From positions 62,001 to 126,000 of the forward strand of contig JAPOPC010000018.1 in assembly GCA_026713105.1 (NCBI GenBank): a DNA stretch of 64,000 nt, in the 5' to 3' direction. The DNA comes from Acidimicrobiaceae bacterium (GTDB lineage Bacteria; Actinomycetota; Acidimicrobiia; Acidimicrobiales; Poriferisodalaceae). Each line of letters opens with the position of its first letter. Within the stretch, counting starts at the first letter, position 1. The notes beneath the pieces are model-generated. The model was not told the DNA's origin. It did not search any database and was given only the letters and a program-made list of their open reading frames with translations. Position numbers and translations under genes: made by a program. Shown here one piece after another: positions 8,936 to 59,871 of this stretch.

Positions 8936-8974
8936 CCAGACGGGTCCCGAAACGTAGCGAGCACTAGTGCGCCC

Positions 8975-9053
8975 GCTGGGAGGGCGGATGAGCCCTCTGC
9001 TCCCGCGATCCAGCAGGTCGCAACGTCGCAGAGTTCTCATCCGCCCTCCCAGC
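8975..9053. repeat. Palindromic intergenic element, copy A
   Basis: A perfect 18-bp inverted repeat (gctgggagggcggatgag at 8975-8992, complement at 9036-9053) encloses an inner 6-bp stem (ctctgc 8995-9000, gcagag 9028-9033). Total length is 79 nt. It resembles the elements at 32176-32329 and 54052-54130. Shared flank tagNtgcgcccgctg precedes the left arm. The right arm ends 30 nt from the ppk stop codon, so it would lie in the 3' end of ppk mRNA. Confidence 0.85.
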
Positions 9054-9083
9054 TTGTTGTTCAGCGCGTTTGAGCGCGGTGGA

Positions 9084-32145: not shown

Positions 32146-32151
32146 AACTTA
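32146..32151 (-). promoter_or_regulatory. Predicted -10 box of the carboxyltransferase gene
   Basis: TAAGTT on the minus strand, 8 nt before GTG 32137, with no Shine-Dalgarno sequence between. It fits a leaderless transcript. Confidence 0.4.
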
Positions 32152-32175
32152 GGAGCCGCGCGGGTAGGTGCGCCC

Positions 32176-32329
32176 GCTGGGGAGGCGGCATGAGCCTCGG
32201 CTCCAGCGATCCGGCGGGCGAGAGATCTGCACCGCACCGCATCTCTTGGTCGGCGTCATCAACGCATCGCCATCCATCCGATAGGGAACCCGTTCGCAAC
32301 GTCGCCGAGTCTCCTGCCGCCTCCCCAGC
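32176..32329. repeat. Palindromic intergenic element, copy B (with enlarged loop)
   Basis: Arms gctggggaggcggcatgag (32176-32194) and its near-perfect complement (32311-32329, one mismatch) enclose an inner stem ctcggc (32196-32201)/gccgag (32304-32309). Compared with copies A and C the loop is longer by 75 nt (154 against 79 nt) and contains its own hairpin agagat...atctct (near 32221-32246). It sits between two divergent genes. Shared flanks reach further out: ttaggNgccgcgcgggtagg on the left as in copy C, and a CTA triplet 30 nt from the right arm. Confidence 0.8.
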
Positions 32330-32394
32330 TCTGGCATCTGTGCCTACTGGCTTGAGTCCCTAGAGATCGCGCGGGCAGGGCGCATTCGCGGCGT

Positions 32395-33880: not shown

Positions 33881-35191
33881 ATGAGCGGGCAGCACTTCGA
33901 CGCCATCGTCATCGGCGCCGGTGTCATCGGCACGTCAGTCACGTGTGAGCTGGCACGGCGCGGCTGGCGGGTGCTGGGTCTCGATCGCAACCCCGGCGCA
34001 GGCCAGGGTTCCACCAGCGCCTCGTCGGCCATCGTGCGGTTCACCTACTCGACCCGCTCGGGCGTGGCGATGTCCTATGAAGGCCTGCAGTACTGGCTGG
34101 ATTGGCCCAATCACATCGGCGCGTGCGACGAGGCGGGCTACGCAGGGTTCACCGAATGCGGGATGGTGACGCTCTTCAGCGGCGAAGGTCCCCACCTGTT
34201 GCCGGTGCCGCACTTCGAGGCGCTCGGCGTTCCCCATGAGATCTGGGACTGCGACGAAACGGTCGCCCGGCTCGTTCCGCTCGATATGTCCCGTTTCGGT
34301 CCGCCTCGCCAACTCGACGACCCTGACTTCTGGGCGCAGCCCACATCGCGTCTCGAGGGCGCATTGTGGACGCCCGAAGCCGGGTATGTGGGCGATCCGC
34401 AGCTCGCTGCCCACAACCTGCGGCTCGCGGCGGAGGCCGCCGGTGCCGAATTTCGCTTCGGGGCAACCATGGTCGGGATATCAGGCTCCGGTCGCGCCGA
34501 GGGCGTGCTGCTCGCCGACGGCACTGAGGTGTCGGCGCCCGTGGTGGTGAATGTCGCCGGTCCGCACAGCAGCGCCGTCAACCGCCTCGCCGGCGTGCTC
34601 GATGACATGTCGATCAGCACCCGGCCGCTGCGCAAGGAGGTGTATCACGTGCCCTCGCCGCCGGGTGTCGACTTCGAGCACCGTGGTGCAGCGATGGCCG
34701 ACGACGATTGCGGCTGCTACGTGCGGCCCGAGGTGGGCAACAATCTCCTCATCGGCTCGCTCGAGCTCGATTCGACGCACTTCGAGTGGCTCGACACCGA
34801 CGAGATCGACGGCTGCTCACAAGACCTCAGCCGCGACCAGTGGGAAACCCATGTGCTGCGGTTCGCCCGGCGGATGCCCGATCTCGGACTGCCGCACCAG
34901 CCGAGAGGCATCGTGGGTGTGTACGACGTGGCCGACGACTGGATCCCGATCTACGACCGCACTTCGCTCGACGGGTTCTACGTAGCGATCGGCACCAGCG
35001 GCAACCAGTTCAAGAACGCGGCAGTCGCCGGCCATTGCATGGCCGAGCTGATCGGTGCGGTCGAAGCCGGCCACGACCACGACGCCGATCCCGTCGTCGT
35101 GACCGGCAAGCACACCGGCTTCGACATCGACATGGGCACGTTTTCCCGCAAGCGAGACCTCCACGGTTCGTCAATGTCCGTGCTCGGCTAA
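33881..35191 (+). CDS. FAD-dependent amine/amino-acid oxidoreductase (DAO family)
   Basis: 436-aa flavoprotein of the D-amino-acid oxidase/sarcosine oxidase superfamily. The FAD-binding motif is FDAIVIGAGVIGTSVTCELA at the N-terminus. SSAIVRFTYSTRSG follows, then NVAGPHSSAVNRLAG in the middle and, near the C-terminus, DDWIPIYDRTSLDGFYVAIG with the conserved G-x-S-G (GTSGNQFKNA). Substrates are typically N-methyl or secondary amines such as sarcosine and dimethylglycine; which one cannot be read. Start ATG 33881 gives the compact N-terminus. The gene ends in a 35-bp tandem repeat and is convergent with the NUDIX gene. Confidence 0.85.
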   Translation: MSGQHFDAIVIGAGVIGTSVTCELARRGWRVLGLDRNPGAGQGSTSASSAIVRFTYSTRSGVAMSYEGLQYWLDWPNHIGACDEAGYAGFTECGMVTLFSGEGPHLLPVPHFEALGVPHEIWDCDETVARLVPLDMSRFGPPRQLDDPDFWAQPTSRLEGALWTPEAGYVGDPQLAAHNLRLAAEAAGAEFRFGATMVGISGSGRAEGVLLADGTEVSAPVVVNVAGPHSSAVNRLAGVLDDMSISTRPLRKEVYHVPSPPGVDFEHRGAAMADDDCGCYVRPEVGNNLLIGSLELDSTHFEWLDTDEIDGCSQDLSRDQWETHVLRFARRMPDLGLPHQPRGIVGVYDVADDWIPIYDRTSLDGFYVAIGTSGNQFKNAAVAGHCMAELIGAVEAGHDHDADPVVVTGKHTGFDIDMGTFSRKRDLHGSSMSVLG

Positions 35192-35271
35192 CGCCAGGCG
35201 CTGTGTGTGATGGTTCGCTCGGCTAACGCCAGGCGCTGTGTGTGATGGTTCGCCCGGCTAACGCCAGGCGA
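35186..35271. repeat. 35-bp tandem repeat at a convergent gene junction
   Basis: Two full copies of a 35-bp unit begin at 35186 and 35221, and a partial third copy of about 16 bp begins at 35256 (core ggctaacgccaggcg). The first copy contains the stop of the flavoprotein gene (TAA 35189-35191). The third contains the stop of the minus-strand NUDIX gene (35258-35260). Confidence 0.85.
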
Positions 35272-41872: not shown

Positions 41873-44410
41873 ATGAGTGGGGAAACGAACACGGATGTAC
41901 ATGGGGTGCTGGCTGACTACCGCGTCATCGACCTGACCGACGAGCGCGGCCACCTGGCCGGGTTGATCTGGGCCCAGATGGGCGCCGACGTGATTGCGAT
42001 CGAGCCACCCGAGGGCTCGTCGGCGCGCCGGCTGGGGCCATTCGCGGGCGACGTCGAAGATCCAGGGCGCTCGTTGCACCATTGGTCCTACAACCGGGGA
42101 AAGCGCAGCGTGGTGCTGGATCTGCGCACCTCCGAGGGCGTCGACTGCGCCAAAGCGCTCATCGCCGGCGCGGACGTCGTGTTCGAGTCGTTCGACCCTG
42201 GCGAGGCTGAGGGTCTCGGCCTGGGCCGCGACGTGCTCGCGGAGCTCAACCCGGCCTTGATTCATGTCTCGATCACTGCGTTCGGCAGTGATGGCCCGAA
42301 AGCCAATTGGACCCATTCGGACTTGGCATTGCAGGCCTCAGCGGTGAACATGGCGATCACCGGCGACGCGGACCGGGCGCCGCTTCGCGCAGGCGGCACG
42401 CTTCCGCAGGCGTTCCACAACGCGGCATCCGAAGGCGCCGGAGCGGCGCTGATTGCCATGTGGGACCGTCAGACCCGCTCGGGGCTGGGCCAGCACATCG
42501 ACACGTCCGCCCAGCGGTCCATGAGCCAGGCCTCCATGTCGTCCACGCTCAACACGTCGGTGAATGCGACCGTGACTCAGCGCATCGCCGGCGGCGCCAG
42601 CCTGCAGGGCATCGACATACAGCTCATGTGGCCGTGTGCCGACGGGCATGCCTCGGTGACGTTCCTGTTCGGACCGGGTTTCCGAGCATTCACCGAGAAC
42701 CTCATGGCCTGGGTGCACGAGGAAGGCTTCTGCGACGAGGCCACGCGGGACAAGAACTGGACCGAGTACGCCATGATGCTGCTCGACGGTCGCGAGCCCG
42801 TCTCCGAATACGAGCGGGTCAAGGGGATCCTCACCGATTTCTTCGCCACCAAGACCAAGGCCGAGCTGCTGGACGCGGCGATGACCCGGCGGGTGCTCAT
42901 CACGCCGGTGTGGAACACCGGCGAGGTAGTGGATTCCCATCAGCTCGCCTTTCGTGGGTACTGGGAGGACGTCGATCACAGCGATGTCGTGTCTGACAGC
43001 GACGCTGGTTCATTCGATCCTGCGGCAATTCGCTATCCGGGCGCATTCGCGAAGTTCACCGAGACTCCGCTGGCGAAACTGGGCCGCGCCCCGAGGTTGG
43101 GAGAGCACACCGACGAGGTTTTGGCCGATCTGGACGCCGCAAAGCGCCTGCCGGCAGTACCCGCTGCTATCGCTCCGGTGGCCCATACTTCGCCGCCGCT
43201 TGAGGGCGTCAAGGTGCTCGACTTCATGTGGGCGATGGCCGGCCCGGCGGCTTCGAGGGTCCTGGCCGACTACGGCGCCGACGTGATCCGTGTCGAATCA
43301 GCGAACAAGCTCGATGCGATTCGGTCGATCCAGCCGTTCCACGACGATGTCGGCGATCCCGACGGCTCGGCGCTGTTCAGCAATCTGAACGCCGGCAAGC
43401 GCGGCTTGGCGCTGGACATGTCAAAGCCCGAAGCGATGGAGGTCATCTGGGACCTCATCGACTGGGCAGACGTGATCCTGGAGTCGTTCTCGCCCAAGGC
43501 GATGGCCGGTTGGGGCATGGGCTGGGAACAAGTGCGTGAGCGCCGCCCCGACATGGTGATGGCGTCGAGCTGCCTGATGGGCCAGACCGGACCGCTTGCG
43601 CTGCTTGCCGGCTTCGGAACCATGGCCGCAGCGATCTCCGGCTTCTTCTATCCGGTCGGTTGGCCCGATCGGGCGCCGGCGGGGCCGTTCGCCGCGTACA
43701 CCGACTACACGTCGCCGCGCTGGCTGGTGGCCGCTGTGATGGGGGCGCTTGAGCACAAGCGCCAGACCGGCCGCGGCCAGTACGTCGACATGTCCCAGGC
43801 TGAGGCGGCGCTGCACCTGATGGGGCCTGCATTGCTTGAGCGCACCACCAACGGGCGCATCTGGGAGGCGGCGGGCAACCGCGATCTGGTGTTCGCGCCG
43901 CAGGGTGCGTACCAAACCGCAGCGGGAGGCCCTGCTGGGGACGACTTCGACGACAACTGGATCGCGATCTCCTGCGTCGACGACGGCCAATGGGCTGCGC
44001 TGGCCGCCGCGATGGGTCGTGATGACCTGGCGTCGCTGAGCACCGGCGAGCGCCATGCGCGCCACGACGAACTCGACGAGATCATCTCGGCGTGGACCCG
44101 GGGACGTGACGGCTACGAGCTGATGGCTGAGCTGCAGGCGGCTGGCATCGCGGCGCACATCGTGCAGAACTCGCCGGAGTTCACCATCGACCCGCAGCTC
44201 GTCCACCGCCAGTTTCTCGTCGAGGTCGACCACGGCAAGCAGGGCACGACGACGGTGGAGAACACCCGGTTCGTGCTGTCGCGCACACCGGCATCGGTGA
44301 CCTATGGCGGCCCGACGCTCGGCGAGCACAGCTTCGAGGTGCTGACCGAGACGCTCGTCTATGACGGCGACCGCATTGCCGAGCTGGCCGTAGCCGAGCT
44401 CTTGGAGTAG
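41873..44410 (+). CDS. Double-domain CaiB/BaiF CoA-transferase, tandem paralogue 1
   Basis: 845 aa holding two class III CoA-transferase domains. The first (about 12-410) has DLTDERGHLAGLIWAQMGAD, NRGKRSVVLDLRT, SITAFGSDGPK and SGLGQHIDTSAQRSM. The second (about 440-845) has VLDFMWAMAGPAASRVLADY, NAGKRGLALDMSK, ASSCLMGQTGPLALLAGFG and GRGQYVDMSQAEAAL. The Asp that forms the acyl anhydride in this family (G-Q-x-[IV]-D) is present in both halves. The enzyme would move CoA between carboxylic acids; substrates unknown. TGAAAT lies 6 nt before ATG 41873. A near-identical-length paralogue follows. Confidence 0.87.
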   Translation: MSGETNTDVHGVLADYRVIDLTDERGHLAGLIWAQMGADVIAIEPPEGSSARRLGPFAGDVEDPGRSLHHWSYNRGKRSVVLDLRTSEGVDCAKALIAGADVVFESFDPGEAEGLGLGRDVLAELNPALIHVSITAFGSDGPKANWTHSDLALQASAVNMAITGDADRAPLRAGGTLPQAFHNAASEGAGAALIAMWDRQTRSGLGQHIDTSAQRSMSQASMSSTLNTSVNATVTQRIAGGASLQGIDIQLMWPCADGHASVTFLFGPGFRAFTENLMAWVHEEGFCDEATRDKNWTEYAMMLLDGREPVSEYERVKGILTDFFATKTKAELLDAAMTRRVLITPVWNTGEVVDSHQLAFRGYWEDVDHSDVVSDSDAGSFDPAAIRYPGAFAKFTETPLAKLGRAPRLGEHTDEVLADLDAAKRLPAVPAAIAPVAHTSPPLEGVKVLDFMWAMAGPAASRVLADYGADVIRVESANKLDAIRSIQPFHDDVGDPDGSALFSNLNAGKRGLALDMSKPEAMEVIWDLIDWADVILESFSPKAMAGWGMGWEQVRERRPDMVMASSCLMGQTGPLALLAGFGTMAAAISGFFYPVGWPDRAPAGPFAAYTDYTSPRWLVAAVMGALEHKRQTGRGQYVDMSQAEAALHLMGPALLERTTNGRIWEAAGNRDLVFAPQGAYQTAAGGPAGDDFDDNWIAISCVDDGQWAALAAAMGRDDLASLSTGERHARHDELDEIISAWTRGRDGYELMAELQAAGIAAHIVQNSPEFTIDPQLVHRQFLVEVDHGKQGTTTVENTRFVLSRTPASVTYGGPTLGEHSFEVLTETLVYDGDRIAELAVAELLE

Positions 44411-44459: not shown

Positions 44460-46982
44460 ATGCATGACGCCCCCGCTGATTCTGAGACCACGTCGATGCT
44501 GAGCCCGTTCCGGGTGCTCGACCTCACCGACGAGCGCGGTCACCTGTGCGGGGCGATCCTCGCCCAGATGGGCACCGACGTGATTGCGGTGGAGCCGCCC
44601 GAAGGCTCATCGGCGCGCCGGCTGGCCCCCTTCGCCGGCGATGTTGAAGGACCCGAGCGGTCGCTGCACCACTGGGCCTACAACCGGGGCAAGCGCAGCG
44701 TCGTGCTCGATGTGCGCACCGACGAGGGCGCTGAGCAGCTCAAGGCGCTGGCGGTCGCGGCGGACATCTTGATCGAGTCGGCCGGTGCCGGTGCCATGGA
44801 CGACCTCGGGCTCGGCTACGACACTTTGTCGCAGGTCAATTCCGAGCTGGTGTACGTGTCCATCACGCCCTTCGGCTCGGACGGGCCGAAGGCGACCTGG
44901 GTGGCGTCGGACCTCACGCTGCAGGCCTCGGCCGTGAACATGGCCATGACCGGCGACTCCGACCGGGCGCCGGTGCGCACCGGGGGACTGCTGCCTCAGG
45001 CGTTCCACAACGCGGCCTCCGAGGCAGCGGGCGCGGCGCTTATCGCCCTGTGGGAACGCCAGACAGTCTCGGGCCTCGGCCAGCACGTCGACATGTCGGC
45101 GCAGCAGAGCATGAATCAGGCCTGCCAGTCGTACGCGCTCTCGACGCCGATCGGAGCCACGCCGCCGGTCAGGCACGCGGGCGGGGTGCTCGTGGAGGGC
45201 CTGCACATCCAGCTGATGTGGCCGTGCGCGGATGGCCACGCCTCGGTCACGTTCTTGTTCGGGCCGGGCTTTCGGGCCTTCACTCAGAACCTCATGGATT
45301 GGGTGTGCGAGGAGGGCTTCTGCGACGAAGCCACACGAGACAAGAATTGGACCGAGTACGCGATGATGCTGCTTGACGGTCGCGAGCCGGTCTCGGAGTA
45401 CGAGCGGCTGAAGCAGGTGCTGGCTGACTTCTTCGCCACCAAGACGAAGGCCGAGCTGCTCGACGCGGCCATGAGCCGTCGGGTGCTCATCACGCCGGTT
45501 TCCACAACCGACGAGGTAATCGACTCGCACCAGCTCGCAGCGCGCGAGTACTGGGAGACCGTCACCCAGGAGGTAGACGGGGACGGCTCCACCGACGTCG
45601 TATACCCGGGGAGCTTCGCCCGTTTCGGTGCGACACCGATGCCGCCACTCGGTCCGCCGCCCAAGCTCGGCCAGCACACCGATGACGTGCTCGCGGAGAT
45701 GGCATCGGCGGCGCAGACTCGTCCGCGAATCGAGGCAACCGGCGCAGACGTGTCCGCTCACACGCCCTCGACAGCCCGCCCGCTGGAGAACGTCAAGGTG
45801 CTCGACTTCATGTGGGCGATGGCGGGCCCCGCAGCAGCGCGTGTGCTCGCCGACTACGGCGCCGACATCATCCGCGTCGAGTCCGAGACGCGGCTCGAGG
45901 TGGCTCGCTCGCTGCAGCCGTTCCGCGACGACATCGGCGATCCTGAGTATTCAGCGCTTTACAACAACATGAACGCCGGCAAGCGGGGCATCTGCCTGGA
46001 CATGTCGAAGCCCGCAGCACTCGATGTCATCTGGGATCTCATCGACTGGGCCGACGTAATCGTGGAGTCGTTCTCGCCCAAGGCCATGGCCGGCTGGGGG
46101 ATGGGCTGGGAGCAGGTCCGCGAACGTCGGCCGGACGTGATCATGGCGTCGAGCTGTTTGATGGGCCAGACCGGACCGCTGGCGATGCTGGCCGGCTTCG
46201 GCACGATGGCCGCGGCCATCTCGGGGTTCTTCTACCCAGTCGGCTGGCCCGACCGCGCACCGTGCGGACCGTTCGGCGCCTACACCGACTACACGTCGCC
46301 GCGCTGGCTGGTGGCGGCTGTCATGGGGGCGTTGGAGCACCGGCGCCGCACCGGCGAAGGCCAATACATCGACATGTCCCAAGCCGAAGCGGCGCTGCAC
46401 TTGATGGCGCCAGCGCTGCTCAACCAGACGGTCAACGGCCGCATGGCTGAGCGGGTGGGCAACCGGGACAGCCACATTGCTCCCCAAGGCGTGTACCAGA
46501 CGGGCGCGACGCAAGCCCATGACGACAACTGGATTGCGATCGCTTGCGTCGACGACAGTCAGTGGCACTCGCTGGCAGCCCAGCTGGGTCGCAGCGATCT
46601 GGGAGACCTGACGCTGGCGCAGCGTCACGAGCGTCACGACGAGCTGGACGACGTCATCGCAGCGTGGACCCGGGGTCAAGACGGCAACGCGTTGATGTAC
46701 CGCCTGCAGGACGTCGGTGTTGCGGCTCACATCGTCCAGAACTCGCCCGAGTACACGGCCGACCCGCAAATCATTCACCGGGGTCAGCAGGTTGAAGTAG
46801 GTCATGCCAAGCAAGGCACAACGATCGTGGACGCATCTCGCTTCGCGCTGTCGCGCACACCCGCGGAGGTGACCTACGGCGGCCCGACGCTCGGCGAGCA
46901 CACCTTCGACATCCTCACCGAAGTCCTCGGCTACGACAGCGACCGCATAGCCGAACTCGCTGTCGCCGAACTCTTGGCCTGA
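44460..46982 (+). CDS. Double-domain CaiB/BaiF CoA-transferase, tandem paralogue 2
   Basis: 840 aa, clearly a duplicate of the preceding gene; long blocks are identical, such as DKNWTEYAMMLLDGREPVSE and the KAMAGWGMGWEQVRERRPD segment. Both domains keep the catalytic Asp (SGLGQHVDMSAQQSM and GEGQYIDMSQAEAAL). Differences concentrate in residues likely to contact the acyl group, such as SYALSTPIGATPPVRHAGG against SSTLNTSVNATVTQRIAGG. The ten bases tgaaatgtgc before the start are shared with paralogue 1, so the duplication included the promoter. The two copies may serve related but distinct acids. The gene ends at a palindromic terminator region. Confidence 0.87.
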   Translation: MHDAPADSETTSMLSPFRVLDLTDERGHLCGAILAQMGTDVIAVEPPEGSSARRLAPFAGDVEGPERSLHHWAYNRGKRSVVLDVRTDEGAEQLKALAVAADILIESAGAGAMDDLGLGYDTLSQVNSELVYVSITPFGSDGPKATWVASDLTLQASAVNMAMTGDSDRAPVRTGGLLPQAFHNAASEAAGAALIALWERQTVSGLGQHVDMSAQQSMNQACQSYALSTPIGATPPVRHAGGVLVEGLHIQLMWPCADGHASVTFLFGPGFRAFTQNLMDWVCEEGFCDEATRDKNWTEYAMMLLDGREPVSEYERLKQVLADFFATKTKAELLDAAMSRRVLITPVSTTDEVIDSHQLAAREYWETVTQEVDGDGSTDVVYPGSFARFGATPMPPLGPPPKLGQHTDDVLAEMASAAQTRPRIEATGADVSAHTPSTARPLENVKVLDFMWAMAGPAAARVLADYGADIIRVESETRLEVARSLQPFRDDIGDPEYSALYNNMNAGKRGICLDMSKPAALDVIWDLIDWADVIVESFSPKAMAGWGMGWEQVRERRPDVIMASSCLMGQTGPLAMLAGFGTMAAAISGFFYPVGWPDRAPCGPFGAYTDYTSPRWLVAAVMGALEHRRRTGEGQYIDMSQAEAALHLMAPALLNQTVNGRMAERVGNRDSHIAPQGVYQTGATQAHDDNWIAIACVDDSQWHSLAAQLGRSDLGDLTLAQRHERHDELDDVIAAWTRGQDGNALMYRLQDVGVAAHIVQNSPEYTADPQIIHRGQQVEVGHAKQGTTIVDASRFALSRTPAEVTYGGPTLGEHTFDILTEVLGYDSDRIAELAVAELLA

Positions 46983-53973: not shown

Positions 53974-54051
53974 AGGGCGACAGTGTGGCATCGCGCCGGA
54001 GGGCTTGCCCGGCGCGATGCAGCCTTAGGGGCCGCGCGGGTAGGTGCGCCC

Positions 54052-54130
54052 GCTGCGGAGGCGGCAGAGCCCTCTGCTCCAGCAATCCAGCAGGTTGCAA
54101 CGTCGCAGAGTTCCCTGCCGCCTCCGCAGC
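54052..54130. repeat. Palindromic intergenic element, copy C
   Basis: A perfect 16-bp inverted repeat (gctgcggaggcggcag at 54052-54067, complement at 54115-54130) encloses ctctgc (54072-54077)/gcagag (54105-54110). It is 79 nt long, like copy A. Its right end lies 30 nt from the stop codon of the dienelactone hydrolase, the same distance as copy A from ppk1. The left flank ttaggggccgcgcgggtagg (54025-54044) is shared with copy B. Confidence 0.85.
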
Positions 54131-54160
54131 TATGACGTCTGTGCCTATCCGCTGACGGTC

Positions 54161-54901
54161 CTAGTGCAGGCGGCGGGCGAACATGTCGAGCAGCAGCTCC
54201 CAGTGGCGCTCGGCGGCAGGCTGGTCATACACGGGTCGCTGCGGGAACACGAAGCCGTGGTGGGTGTCGTCGACCCAGAGGGTCTGAGCGTCGGTGCCGG
54301 CGTCGGCGAAGGCCTTGCACAGCCGGTCGTAGTGCGCCCGGTCGACGTAGTCGTCGTGCTCGGCTGACATCACCAGCACTTCGCCGCGGATGTCTGGCGC
54401 CCGAAGGTGGGGCGAGTCGTCGGCGTCCACGGCCAAGCGCACGCCGTGAATAGATGCCGCCGCGGTGATCGTGTCGGGGTAGTCCGCGGCAAGCCAGATC
54501 GCCATCGGGCCGGTCATGCAGTAGCCGGTGGTGCCGACCCGTTCGATGCTGGCAGCCGGGTCTGCGTCGGCGTAGCGCATCAGCGCGGCGGCATCACGCG
54601 AGACCATCGCATTGGACAGGTTCGTCATCAGCTCGAACATGAACTGGCGGCTGGCGGGGTCGTCCCGCTGGACGATGAATCCCGGAACGTCGCGGTAGTA
54701 CAGGTTGGGCAGCAGCACGTAGTACCCGACCGTCGCTATGCGCCGCGCCATGTCGTGCAGTTCTTCGCGCTTGCCGGGAGCGTCCATCAAGAACAGCACC
54801 GTGGGGAACGGTCCCGGCCGGCGCTCGCTCGGCTCGGGATGCACGACGAATGTGCTCATCTCGCCTTCGCCGGTGTCGATCGACACGTGGTCTTCGAACA
54901 T
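54161..54901 (-). CDS. Dienelactone hydrolase family protein
   Basis: 246-aa alpha/beta hydrolase with a Cys nucleophile. It starts MFEDHVSIDTGEGEMSTFVV after ggagg. Key blocks are VLFLMDAPGKREELHDMARR, RVGTTGYCMTGPMAIWLAAD (nucleophile Cys in G-x-C-x-G), VMSAEHDDYVDRAHYDRL (Asp) and VDDTHHGFVFPQRPVYD (His). The triad Cys-Asp-His is complete. Classic members open dienelactone in chlorocatechol catabolism; many have other ester substrates. The frame stays open upstream to 55879 but that part is antisense to the enoyl-CoA hydratase. It is divergent from that gene. Confidence 0.87.
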   Translation of the reverse strand: MFEDHVSIDTGEGEMSTFVVHPEPSERRPGPFPTVLFLMDAPGKREELHDMARRIATVGYYVLLPNLYYRDVPGFIVQRDDPASRQFMFELMTNLSNAMVSRDAAALMRYADADPAASIERVGTTGYCMTGPMAIWLAADYPDTITAAASIHGVRLAVDADDSPHLRAPDIRGEVLVMSAEHDDYVDRAHYDRLCKAFADAGTDAQTLWVDDTHHGFVFPQRPVYDQPAAERHWELLLDMFARRLH

Positions 54902-55019
54902 CGCTGCCTCCTTGCCGCCGGCGTTCCGCCAGCCAGTGCGGATTCGGTGACCTCTGTGTAGTGCGTCGGGGGCGGTTGCGCTCGCGCCGACCGCTGCTGC
55001 TTGCGGGCGACGACCGGCA

Positions 55020-55025
55020 TACGAT
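55020..55025 (+). promoter_or_regulatory. Predicted -10 box of the enoyl-CoA hydratase gene
   Basis: TACGAT, 8 nt before ATG 55034, with no clear Shine-Dalgarno sequence between. It fits a leaderless transcript. Confidence 0.45.
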
Positions 55026-55033
55026 CCCGGGCC

Positions 55034-55849
55034 ATGCAGGCACTGGACTTCGAACCGCAGTACTTCGTCTACGAGGAAATCCGGCCGCGTGTGGCCCGGA
55101 TCACCATCAACCGGCCCGAGGTGCGCAACGCCATCAACACACCGGCGCACAAGGAGTGGTCCGACATCTTGGACCACGCCGCGGCCGATGACGATGTGTG
55201 GTTGATGGTCATCACCGGGGTGGGCCGCCAGGCCTTCTGCGCAGGGCGGGATCTCAAGCACCTGTCGATGGTTCGCCAGTCCGACGAGGCCACGCAGGCT
55301 GCGGACCGCGAGCTGATGAGCCAGGTGACCCGGCTGATCGAGCGCTTCGACTATCCCAAGCCGCTCATCGCCCAGGTGAACGGCGTGGCGCTTGGCGGCG
55401 GCTTCGAGGTGGCGATGGCGTGCGATCTCGTCGTGGCGGCCGACCACGCTCAGTTCGGGCTGACCGAGCCGCTGCGTGGCTTGTATGCCGGCGGCGGGGG
55501 AGTGCACCGGCTGCCGCGCCAGATCCCGATGAAGCTCGCCATGGAATACCTGCTGACGGCTCGCACCATGAGCGCGCAGCGGGCGCTTGAGCTGGGCATC
55601 GTGAACGACGTCGTGCCCTACGACGAGCTCGACGCAGCAACCGATCGGCTGATCGACGACATCATGCGGTGCGCGCCGCTGTCCATCCAGGCCACCAAGC
55701 AGGCTGCGATGCGCGGGCTCGACATGCCGCTCGGCGAAGCGTTCCACCACCCTTATCCGGCAGTCGCCCGCCTGATGGCCAGCGAGGACGTCAAAGAGGG
55801 CCCCCGAGCCTTCGCCGAGAAACGCCAGCCCAACTGGCAAGGCCGCTGA
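55034..55849 (+). CDS. Enoyl-CoA hydratase/isomerase family protein
   Basis: 271-aa crotonase. Visible blocks are RITINRPEVRNAIN, the first oxyanion-hole segment FCAGRDLKHLSMV, and the second VNGVALGGGFEVAMACDLVV followed by AADHAQFGLTEPLRGLYAGG. In place of the paired Glu of hydratases, the first usual position is V-A-M-A-C-D and the second carries T-E-P-L-R-G-L, so one acid is present. The C-terminus EGPRAFAEKRQPNWQGR is standard. It may hydrate an enoyl-CoA or act on an aromatic-acid CoA thioester. Start ATG 55034 follows a TACGAT box. It is divergent from the dienelactone hydrolase. Confidence 0.85.
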   Translation: MQALDFEPQYFVYEEIRPRVARITINRPEVRNAINTPAHKEWSDILDHAAADDDVWLMVITGVGRQAFCAGRDLKHLSMVRQSDEATQAADRELMSQVTRLIERFDYPKPLIAQVNGVALGGGFEVAMACDLVVAADHAQFGLTEPLRGLYAGGGGVHRLPRQIPMKLAMEYLLTARTMSAQRALELGIVNDVVPYDELDAATDRLIDDIMRCAPLSIQATKQAAMRGLDMPLGEAFHHPYPAVARLMASEDVKEGPRAFAEKRQPNWQGR

Positions 55850-55949
55850 TCCGCCGTCGCCGTAGGAGGCGAGCTTCACGCTTCATCCTCGCCGATTACT
55901 TGGTTGAGCAAATTTGCGCAGGAGCATAAGCAGGCGATGGCGGCAAACA

Positions 55950-59306: not shown

Positions 59307-59871
59307 AGCCTGAGATGAGCGACACCGCCATCGGCGTGCCGACCGCCGCGAGGATCGAGACGCCGAATGAGACGACGATCCCCACGAGCCACCGAAACTG
59401 GCTCTTCGCTTCAGCCCGATCAGCAGCACGTTCGGCACGGTCCGCTTCACGCAGGGTCGCGGCCTCGGCACGGTCTGCTTCACGCAAGGCTGCGGCCTCG
59501 GCACGATCTGTCTCACGAAGGTCCGCCAAGCGCACGACGGCGGTATCGACCCGTCGGAGCTCGGACTCGACCCGCTGCAGATCGTTCTTCGTCGTAGTTT
59601 CGAGCCGCCGTATTTCGTTCTTCGTCGTGGTTTCGAGCCGCTGCAGGTCGTCTTTCGTCGTGGCCTCAAGCCGCCGCAGATCGTTCTTCGTGGTGGTTTC
59701 GAGCCGCTGTATTTCGTTCTTGGTGGTGGTTTCGACCCGCTGCAGATCGTTCTTGGTGGCCAACTCGTCCAGCGGCACGGTACTCAAGCGGGACACGAGG
59801 TATTCCGCGAGTCGCTCGTCGGTCTCCTCACAGAGCCAATCGTAGAGACGGGATCGATCCCCTTCAAGCAT
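59305..59871 (-). CDS. Membrane-anchored coiled-coil protein with hendecad repeats
   Basis: 188 aa from ATG 59871 after ggagg. Residues 1-38 are a short N-domain (MLEGDRSRLYDWLCEETDER). Residues about 40-105 are six 11-residue repeats of the form K-[ND]-[DE]-[LI]-[QR]-R-[LV]-E-x-T-T (DNA 59557-59754, 33-bp units). Residues about 120-152 are three more 11-residue units, L-R-E-[AT]-D-R-A-E-A-A-[AT] (about 59415-59513). A transmembrane helix (FRWLVGIVVSFGVSILAAVG) ends the protein. Eleven-residue spacing favours a right-handed coiled coil. The family resembles DUF1640/CCDC90-type proteins. It sits upstream of and divergent from the hsd locus; role unknown. Confidence 0.8.
   Translation of the reverse strand: MLEGDRSRLYDWLCEETDERLAEYLVSRLSTVPLDELATKNDLQRVETTTKNEIQRLETTTKNDLRRLEATTKDDLQRLETTTKNEIRRLETTTKNDLQRVESELRRVDTAVVRLADLRETDRAEAAALREADRAEAATLREADRAERAADRAEAKSQFRWLVGIVVSFGVSILAAVGTPMAVSLISG

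Follow-up and report, generated by a model that had tools for sequence, protein, structure and literature searches.

The window, a 64,000-nucleotide stretch of a contig from an Acidimicrobiaceae bacterium, carries three copies of a palindrome whose arms differ from copy to copy and still pair, which raises the question of what keeps them matched. The earlier note offered two answers, namely selection acting to preserve a structure, or an element that copies hairpins. All three copies (A, B and C; Table 1) were confirmed from the sequence where it had placed them and with the arms it had given: the outer arm of copy A is gctgggagggcgg, with its exact complement opposite, and those of copies B and C are gctggggaggcgg and gctgcggaggcgg, respectively. 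The change of the inner stem from ctctgc/gcagag in A and C to ctcggc/gccgag in B was likewise verified. We consider it probable (about 0.7) that the family is a genus-confined MITE-like element that inserts at CTNAG sites and whose arms stay paired by template switching.

Table 1. Positions of the three copies and their parts in the window
Feature	Positions	Strand	Basis or remark
Copy A core, 86 bp (outer stem, inner stem, apical stem-loop)	8969..9054	+	Window sequence, genome match, fold, G015 orthologue (L072), left-half remnant in G020
Left target pentamer of copy B, CTTAG	32148..32152	.	One CCTAG or CTTAG in each of the seven empty alleles
Copy B (206-bp long form, pentamers excluded)	32153..32358	+	Absent in 7/7 relatives with both flanks
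74-nt segment of the long form, hairpin apex of copy B	32219..32292	+	As a query alone, 9 own-genome matches at E ≤ 0.001
Right pentamer of copy B, CCTAG	32359..32363	.	Sequence and empty alleles
Left pentamer of copy C, CTTAG	54024..54028	.	Sequence and relatives' loci
Copy C (131-bp short form, pentamers excluded); core 54046-54131	54029..54159	+	Absent in 10/10 relatives, clean junction in G016 only
Right pentamer of copy C, CCTAG	54160..54164	.	CTA in it serves as stop codon for ORF 54161-55879 on the minus strand

Two forms of the element were distinguished, a short form of 131 bp (copy C) and a long form of 206 bp (copy B), whose apex carries a further 74 nt. The inverted ends are imperfect (GAGCC...GTAGG versus GACTCGAGCC.GTAGG), and the end segments of copy A are too diverged for placement. 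Taken nearly whole, copies B and C each fold as one hairpin, and the predicted RNA folds of copies A and C are more stable than any of 200 shuffles (z of −7.8 for A and −6.7 for C). Copy A lies just past the stop codon of a polyphosphate kinase gene, copy C just 3′ of the stop codon of a dienelactone-hydrolase-family gene, and copy B between divergent carboxyl-transferase and M24 peptidase genes.

Copy C gave 71 matches in its own genome (G000, 94% complete), opposite-strand shadows included; these shadows, which the palindrome casts on the reverse strand, do not enter the copy counts. With a covariance model of 37 copies, 40 distinct short-form places scored 73 bits or more in the host genome, including one truncated at the end of a contig, and a DNA search with copy B returned at least 12 long-form places, copy B included. 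The earlier note had proposed a search of this kind in the host and other Acidimicrobiia, and what it returned is a large family in 11 of 11 genus genomes rather than few or no further copies. At the family level (39 genomes), the 11 genomes with matches are all 11 members of the genus, and the element was absent from the 28 genomes of nine other genera. In a sample of the order searched with stricter filters, 6 of 298 genomes matched, all six of them from the genus; the 272 genomes whose genera are not shown all gave no match. An exact apical pattern found 69 stretches with ten record prefixes in a species-genome collection, all titled as Acidimicrobiia, Acidimicrobiales or Microthrixaceae MAGs, and had no exact match in viral contigs. 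As far as searched, the element is confined to one genus of uncultured Acidimicrobiia. The 148 aligned copies analyzed below are those that were fetched, a subset of all copies in the genus; L061 (the same place as L050), L157 (a contig-edge fragment) and the partial copies L032b, L028 and L039 were dropped before counting, and the long-form copies wB, L038, L129, L089, L156 and L158 were excluded from stem counts. At one host locus (L026/L032, G000:C3:8494-8650), a full copy is immediately preceded by the left half of another, as a partial or nested duplication.

That the element is mobile is shown by orthologous sites that lack it. Seven relatives allow both flanks of site B to be placed. 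The site is empty in all of them, with one CCTAG or CTTAG where the filled allele of the host reads CTTAG, 206 bp, CCTAG. Copy C is missing from its site in all 10 relatives, with a clean junction in G016 and 20–150 nt of other sequence in the rest. At site A, the whole core is present in one of nine relatives (G015) and a left half with the unusual stem of copy A in another (G020); 7/9 have no recognisable element, and three of these seven (G017, G018 and G022) carry about 32 extra nt. Six further sites of the host genome were examined, of which four were readable and two (L030 and L008) unreadable. L031, where the pentamer is mutated, is empty in 5/5 relatives. The element was missing in 5/5 relatives each at L021 and L007, and in 7/8 at L034, where the remaining relative keeps a remnant (right end, G021, by eye) and four of the seven element-free relatives hold a single CCTAG. 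Losses as well as gains of the element seem to occur. A model check of 49 loci at these sites found one copy only, that of G015 at site A. Half-element remnants with one arm lost were recognised by eye, below the reach of the model, in L206 (G020, site A) and L327 (G021, L034).

A CTNAG-like pentamer flanks both ends of the element, as shown at few sites; at B and L034 it occurs once in empty alleles and at both ends in filled ones. The two end pentamers are identical in few copies (L030 and L034), so a preference for this target that involves no true duplication is conceivable; any duplication would be anywhere from 3 to 5 bp long. The element is short, multi-copy and dispersed, has terminal inverted repeats, if imperfect ones, and shows insertion polymorphism between relatives, and its length (131/206 bp) rules out a transposase of its own. 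We read it as MITE-like, non-autonomous and mobile. Copies L070 and L087 lie inside called ORFs.

The covariation that the earlier note had seen in three copies remained evident with more of them. Across 37 copies, of which 36 are distinct, the cells are paired in 97.7% of cases, and two-sided changes affect 12 of 28 pairs, versus 3.5 ± 1.2 in shuffles (0/500 as high, a count that is not a p-value since the structure was derived from the same, related copies) and 1–4 with a sliding partner. Strong covariation ordinarily counts as the leading evidence that an RNA is functional; in this family, much of it may stem from arm copying at the DNA level. Such copying is suggested because G-U pairs are not enriched, the internal loop has been erased in some copies, one apex is inverted and orthologues change on both arms. 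For a structured RNA under selection, the strong covariation and these features point in different directions. G-U accounts for 41 of 237 non-Watson-Crick outer-stem cells (148 copies), by our estimate no more than random single mutations would give. The internal loop is fully paired in 5/148 copies; by eye, the 5′ arm equals the 3′ version in L066, L070 and L134, the 3′ arm equals the 5′ version in L050, and L130 is a mixture. In L134 alone (1/148), which has 27-bp perfect arms, the apex is inverted relative to the ends; in the orientation test 10/148 copies fit the reverse better, nine of them by 3 points or less, and only L134 (17 points) was counted as inverted. Outer-stem mismatch is 3–6% in G000, G015 and G016 and 9–20% in the remaining eight, several of them represented by only 1–8 fetched copies.

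Orthologous loci allow these changes to be followed at fixed places. Of 30 orthologous groups, 28 were used, L012/L074 (a one-side match) and L156/L134 (long versus short) being dropped, and L158 and L115 were omitted from their groups. The 60 orthologous pairs provide 948 stem cells, with 28 Watson-Crick two-sided changes in 7 of the 28 sets, 113 one-sided changes and 15 other two-sided changes. With independent sides we estimate that about 3–4 two-sided changes would be expected, versus the 28 seen in 948 cells, which are not independent events. Copy A and its orthologue L072 differ by five two-sided pairs and no one-sided change. Template switching between the arms probably keeps them paired. 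Template switching is presented as a source of compensatory changes in PMC8794818, and arm homogenisation and spacer inversion are described in PMC8604942. Two-sided paired changes, homogenised arms and an inverted spacer are shared with quasi-palindromes in which the template switches, but the cases described there concern RNA genes and yeast coding genes, whereas the present case is a dispersed bacterial repeat. The 148 aligned copies, of which 69 sit in orthologous sets and also have a paralogue for comparison, form a natural test set for template switching versus selection.

Gene neighbourhoods were assessed with calls from our own codon-usage scorer rather than a standard annotation. Among the 149 copies with both neighbours called, 55 lie between convergent, 45 + 25 between co-directional and 24 between divergent genes; for comparison, the 45 adjacent gene pairs of this one window include 10 convergent and 10 divergent pairs. 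Facing genes on the right stop within 50 nt in 93 of 100 cases, with 38 stops falling where the end pentamer lies and 13 at CTA in the edge of the core, and those on the left in 74 of 80, with 24 in the pentamer zone. The window holds 120 CTNAG sites, and 6 of its 46 called genes have one at the stop. We propose that both forms insert at CTNAG-type sites, with a pentamer at each end, and that the pentamer, whose sequence includes a stop codon in one strand or in both, would allow gene-end insertions to keep their stops. The observed position of surviving copies, often against gene ends, would then arise because this stop codon spares the genes, and the family would represent a repeat whose target preference can make gene-end insertion nearly harmless. 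The element is predicted to fold into one long hairpin from either strand, its arms would be kept paired mainly by template switching during replication (quasi-palindrome correction), and copies may be homogenised at the apex. A broader generalisation, to which we give limited credence, would regard the family as a mobile hairpin that survives by palindrome copying: it would land harmlessly on stop codons, have its arms re-matched, pass RNA covariation tests on that account, and be homogenised at its apex, possibly through cutting of the tip and repair from another copy.

The same positions would also suit a domesticated 3′-end hairpin, which spread as a mobile element and of which many copies are now selected as RNA, acting for example in bidirectional transcription ending or mRNA stability between convergent genes, with a conserved apex bound by a host factor. 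The convergent share (55/149 copies versus 10/45 window pairs) and the very stable folds agree with this account, as does the T-rich ttgttgttc that follows the right arm of copy A on the plus strand, and published work places MITEs and REPs downstream of genes and reports that ERIC can alter mRNA stability. The core itself also agrees with it. Its identity at orthologous loci is 0.87, versus 0.69 for the 37 nt beside it and 0.77 for the codon phase conserved least; the core exceeds its immediate flanks in 24/28 sets and that codon phase in 26/28, figures that lean upward by some amount since the copies were found through the core. Against the whole, mostly coding flank the two are about equal (0.902 and 0.899), the core being lower in 11/28 sets. 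The core is more conserved than simple neutral decay would predict. Its slower evolution, compared in orthologues with the DNA next to it, speaks against a purely selfish element, so use by the host or homogenisation among copies is conceivable. However, 24 of 149 copies, copy B included, lie between divergent genes, only 11 of 154 copies have five or more T within 10 nt after the core, there is no enrichment of G-U pairs, the internal loop has been erased in five copies, and outer-stem mismatch reaches 20% in G022 and 16% in G024 (4 copies each). A terminator scan at copy A flagged none there, but its loop limit of 3–8 nt keeps it from scoring the outer stem, and we do not count it as evidence. 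We judge domestication to be unlikely. Of the two answers in the earlier note, the mobile element is supported by the empty orthologous sites, the inverted ends, the pentamer at both ends and the restriction to one genus, and selection on the structure, weakened by the G-U share, the erased loops and the 9–20% outer-stem mismatch in eight genomes, keeps some support from core conservation.

Apex sequences bear on a further alternative, in which interlocus gene conversion is the main force behind apex uniformity and the exchange of long and short forms. The GACC apical variant is present in 0/39 copies of G000, 0/10 of G018 and 0/7 of G020, and in 16/19 of G015, 14/25 of G021 and 6/8 of G019, and the three genomes free of it in this count group together in an unrooted tree of the 11 genomes (G000 with G018 and G020, support 0.975). 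Mixed apex types occur in 12/28 orthologous sets, one of which (L155) looks like a point variant; the type 'TCC' here means merely 'not GACC', since the pattern also matched the first bases of the core. The apex is nearer to a paralogue in 40 of 69 copies and to an orthologue in 16 (stems, 23 and 41), a comparison biased by cutting the apex at fixed offsets and by the excess of paralogues over orthologues. Moreover, long and short forms share a locus in three cases. The apex follows species more than locus, with exceptions that count against conversion: G000 is not pure (L039, uncounted, has GACC), and the long copy L089 has GATC there. Furthermore, the change from T to GA could be templated by the opposite arm, so that repeated local events suffice, and the 74-nt loss could be a deletion between short GG repeats. 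The switching of apex and form could reflect either homogenisation among copies or local events that recur, and we regard conversion as the main force as conceivable, at somewhat less than even odds. In the core of L107 (G021), a GCGACCA unit is amplified in tandem in the apex relative to its orthologue L114, perhaps by hairpin-tip slippage.

The GTAG in both inverted ends could suggest an element of the REPIN type, mobilised by a RAYT (Y1) transposase. REPs share with this family GTAG in the ends and a described location mainly 3′ of genes, between co-directional or convergent ORFs. In contrast, the present arms are longer than 20–40 bp REPs, both ends lie next to a CTNAG-like pentamer, and Y1_Tnp was found in 0/11 genus genomes by a search that was positive in 5/14 control genomes. 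With no Y1_Tnp in the 11 genomes we rejected this identity, which we hold to be very improbable. Identity with an integron attC site was considered and is presumed not to apply. The other of the few families searched, DDE_Tnp_1, was found in 7 of the 11 genus genomes, none of them G000, G015, G016 or G018. One end pattern searched in 11 genomes gave 29 matches, 26 at already known places, and no autonomous transposon with matching ends. L345, L346 and L347 are lone right ends without a core, each beside a gene end; the genes near them include an alanine racemase, TsaD and a pterin-binding enzyme, and none of the 8 neighbouring proteins was recognised as a transposase, one of the 8 having no Pfam match. 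Because no mover was found with the families and the end pattern searched, the mobile element that we favour is filed as MITE-like with the helper transposase as the missing part.

That the palindrome belongs to no named RNA or repeat family, as the earlier note had remarked, holds as far as tested. An Rfam search of the window placed only a tRNA above the gathering threshold and nothing at the element, an E-value search with copy C gave only below-threshold matches, mostly to microRNA hairpins, and no title among the open PMC papers listed concerned this repeat family. Among known repeats, ERIC/IRU/RU-1 (127 bp, enterobacteria) resembles it by description as a small, non-autonomous repeat of intergenic DNA that has inverted ends and, in one Yersinia case, lies at 3′ gene ends. 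Its termini are described as having a TA motif and a 7-bp TIR (PMC2229807), whereas the present element is GC-rich and has a CTNAG-like site; TA lies inside many pentamers and our ends were placed outside the pentamer (GAG, GAC), so a terminal TA of the ERIC type depends on the ends chosen. YPAL/RU-2 (about 168 bp, Yersinia), as described, shares a composition that is not A+T-rich, the lack of terminal TA, target duplications and targets at or near dyad symmetry. Its duplications range from 3 to 26 bp, whereas a CTNAG-like pentamer that can carry stop codons recurs here.

Other repeats were noted in the window. A 33-bp unit is repeated in tandem at 59563-59790, appearing as five overlapping 96-nt copies with a spacing of 33, and a perfect 35-bp tandem duplication lies at the end of a called gene (35182-35251). 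Two adjacent large called genes, at 41873-44410 and 44460-46982, are of similar length and 75–82% identical in blocks, and look like a tandem gene duplication.
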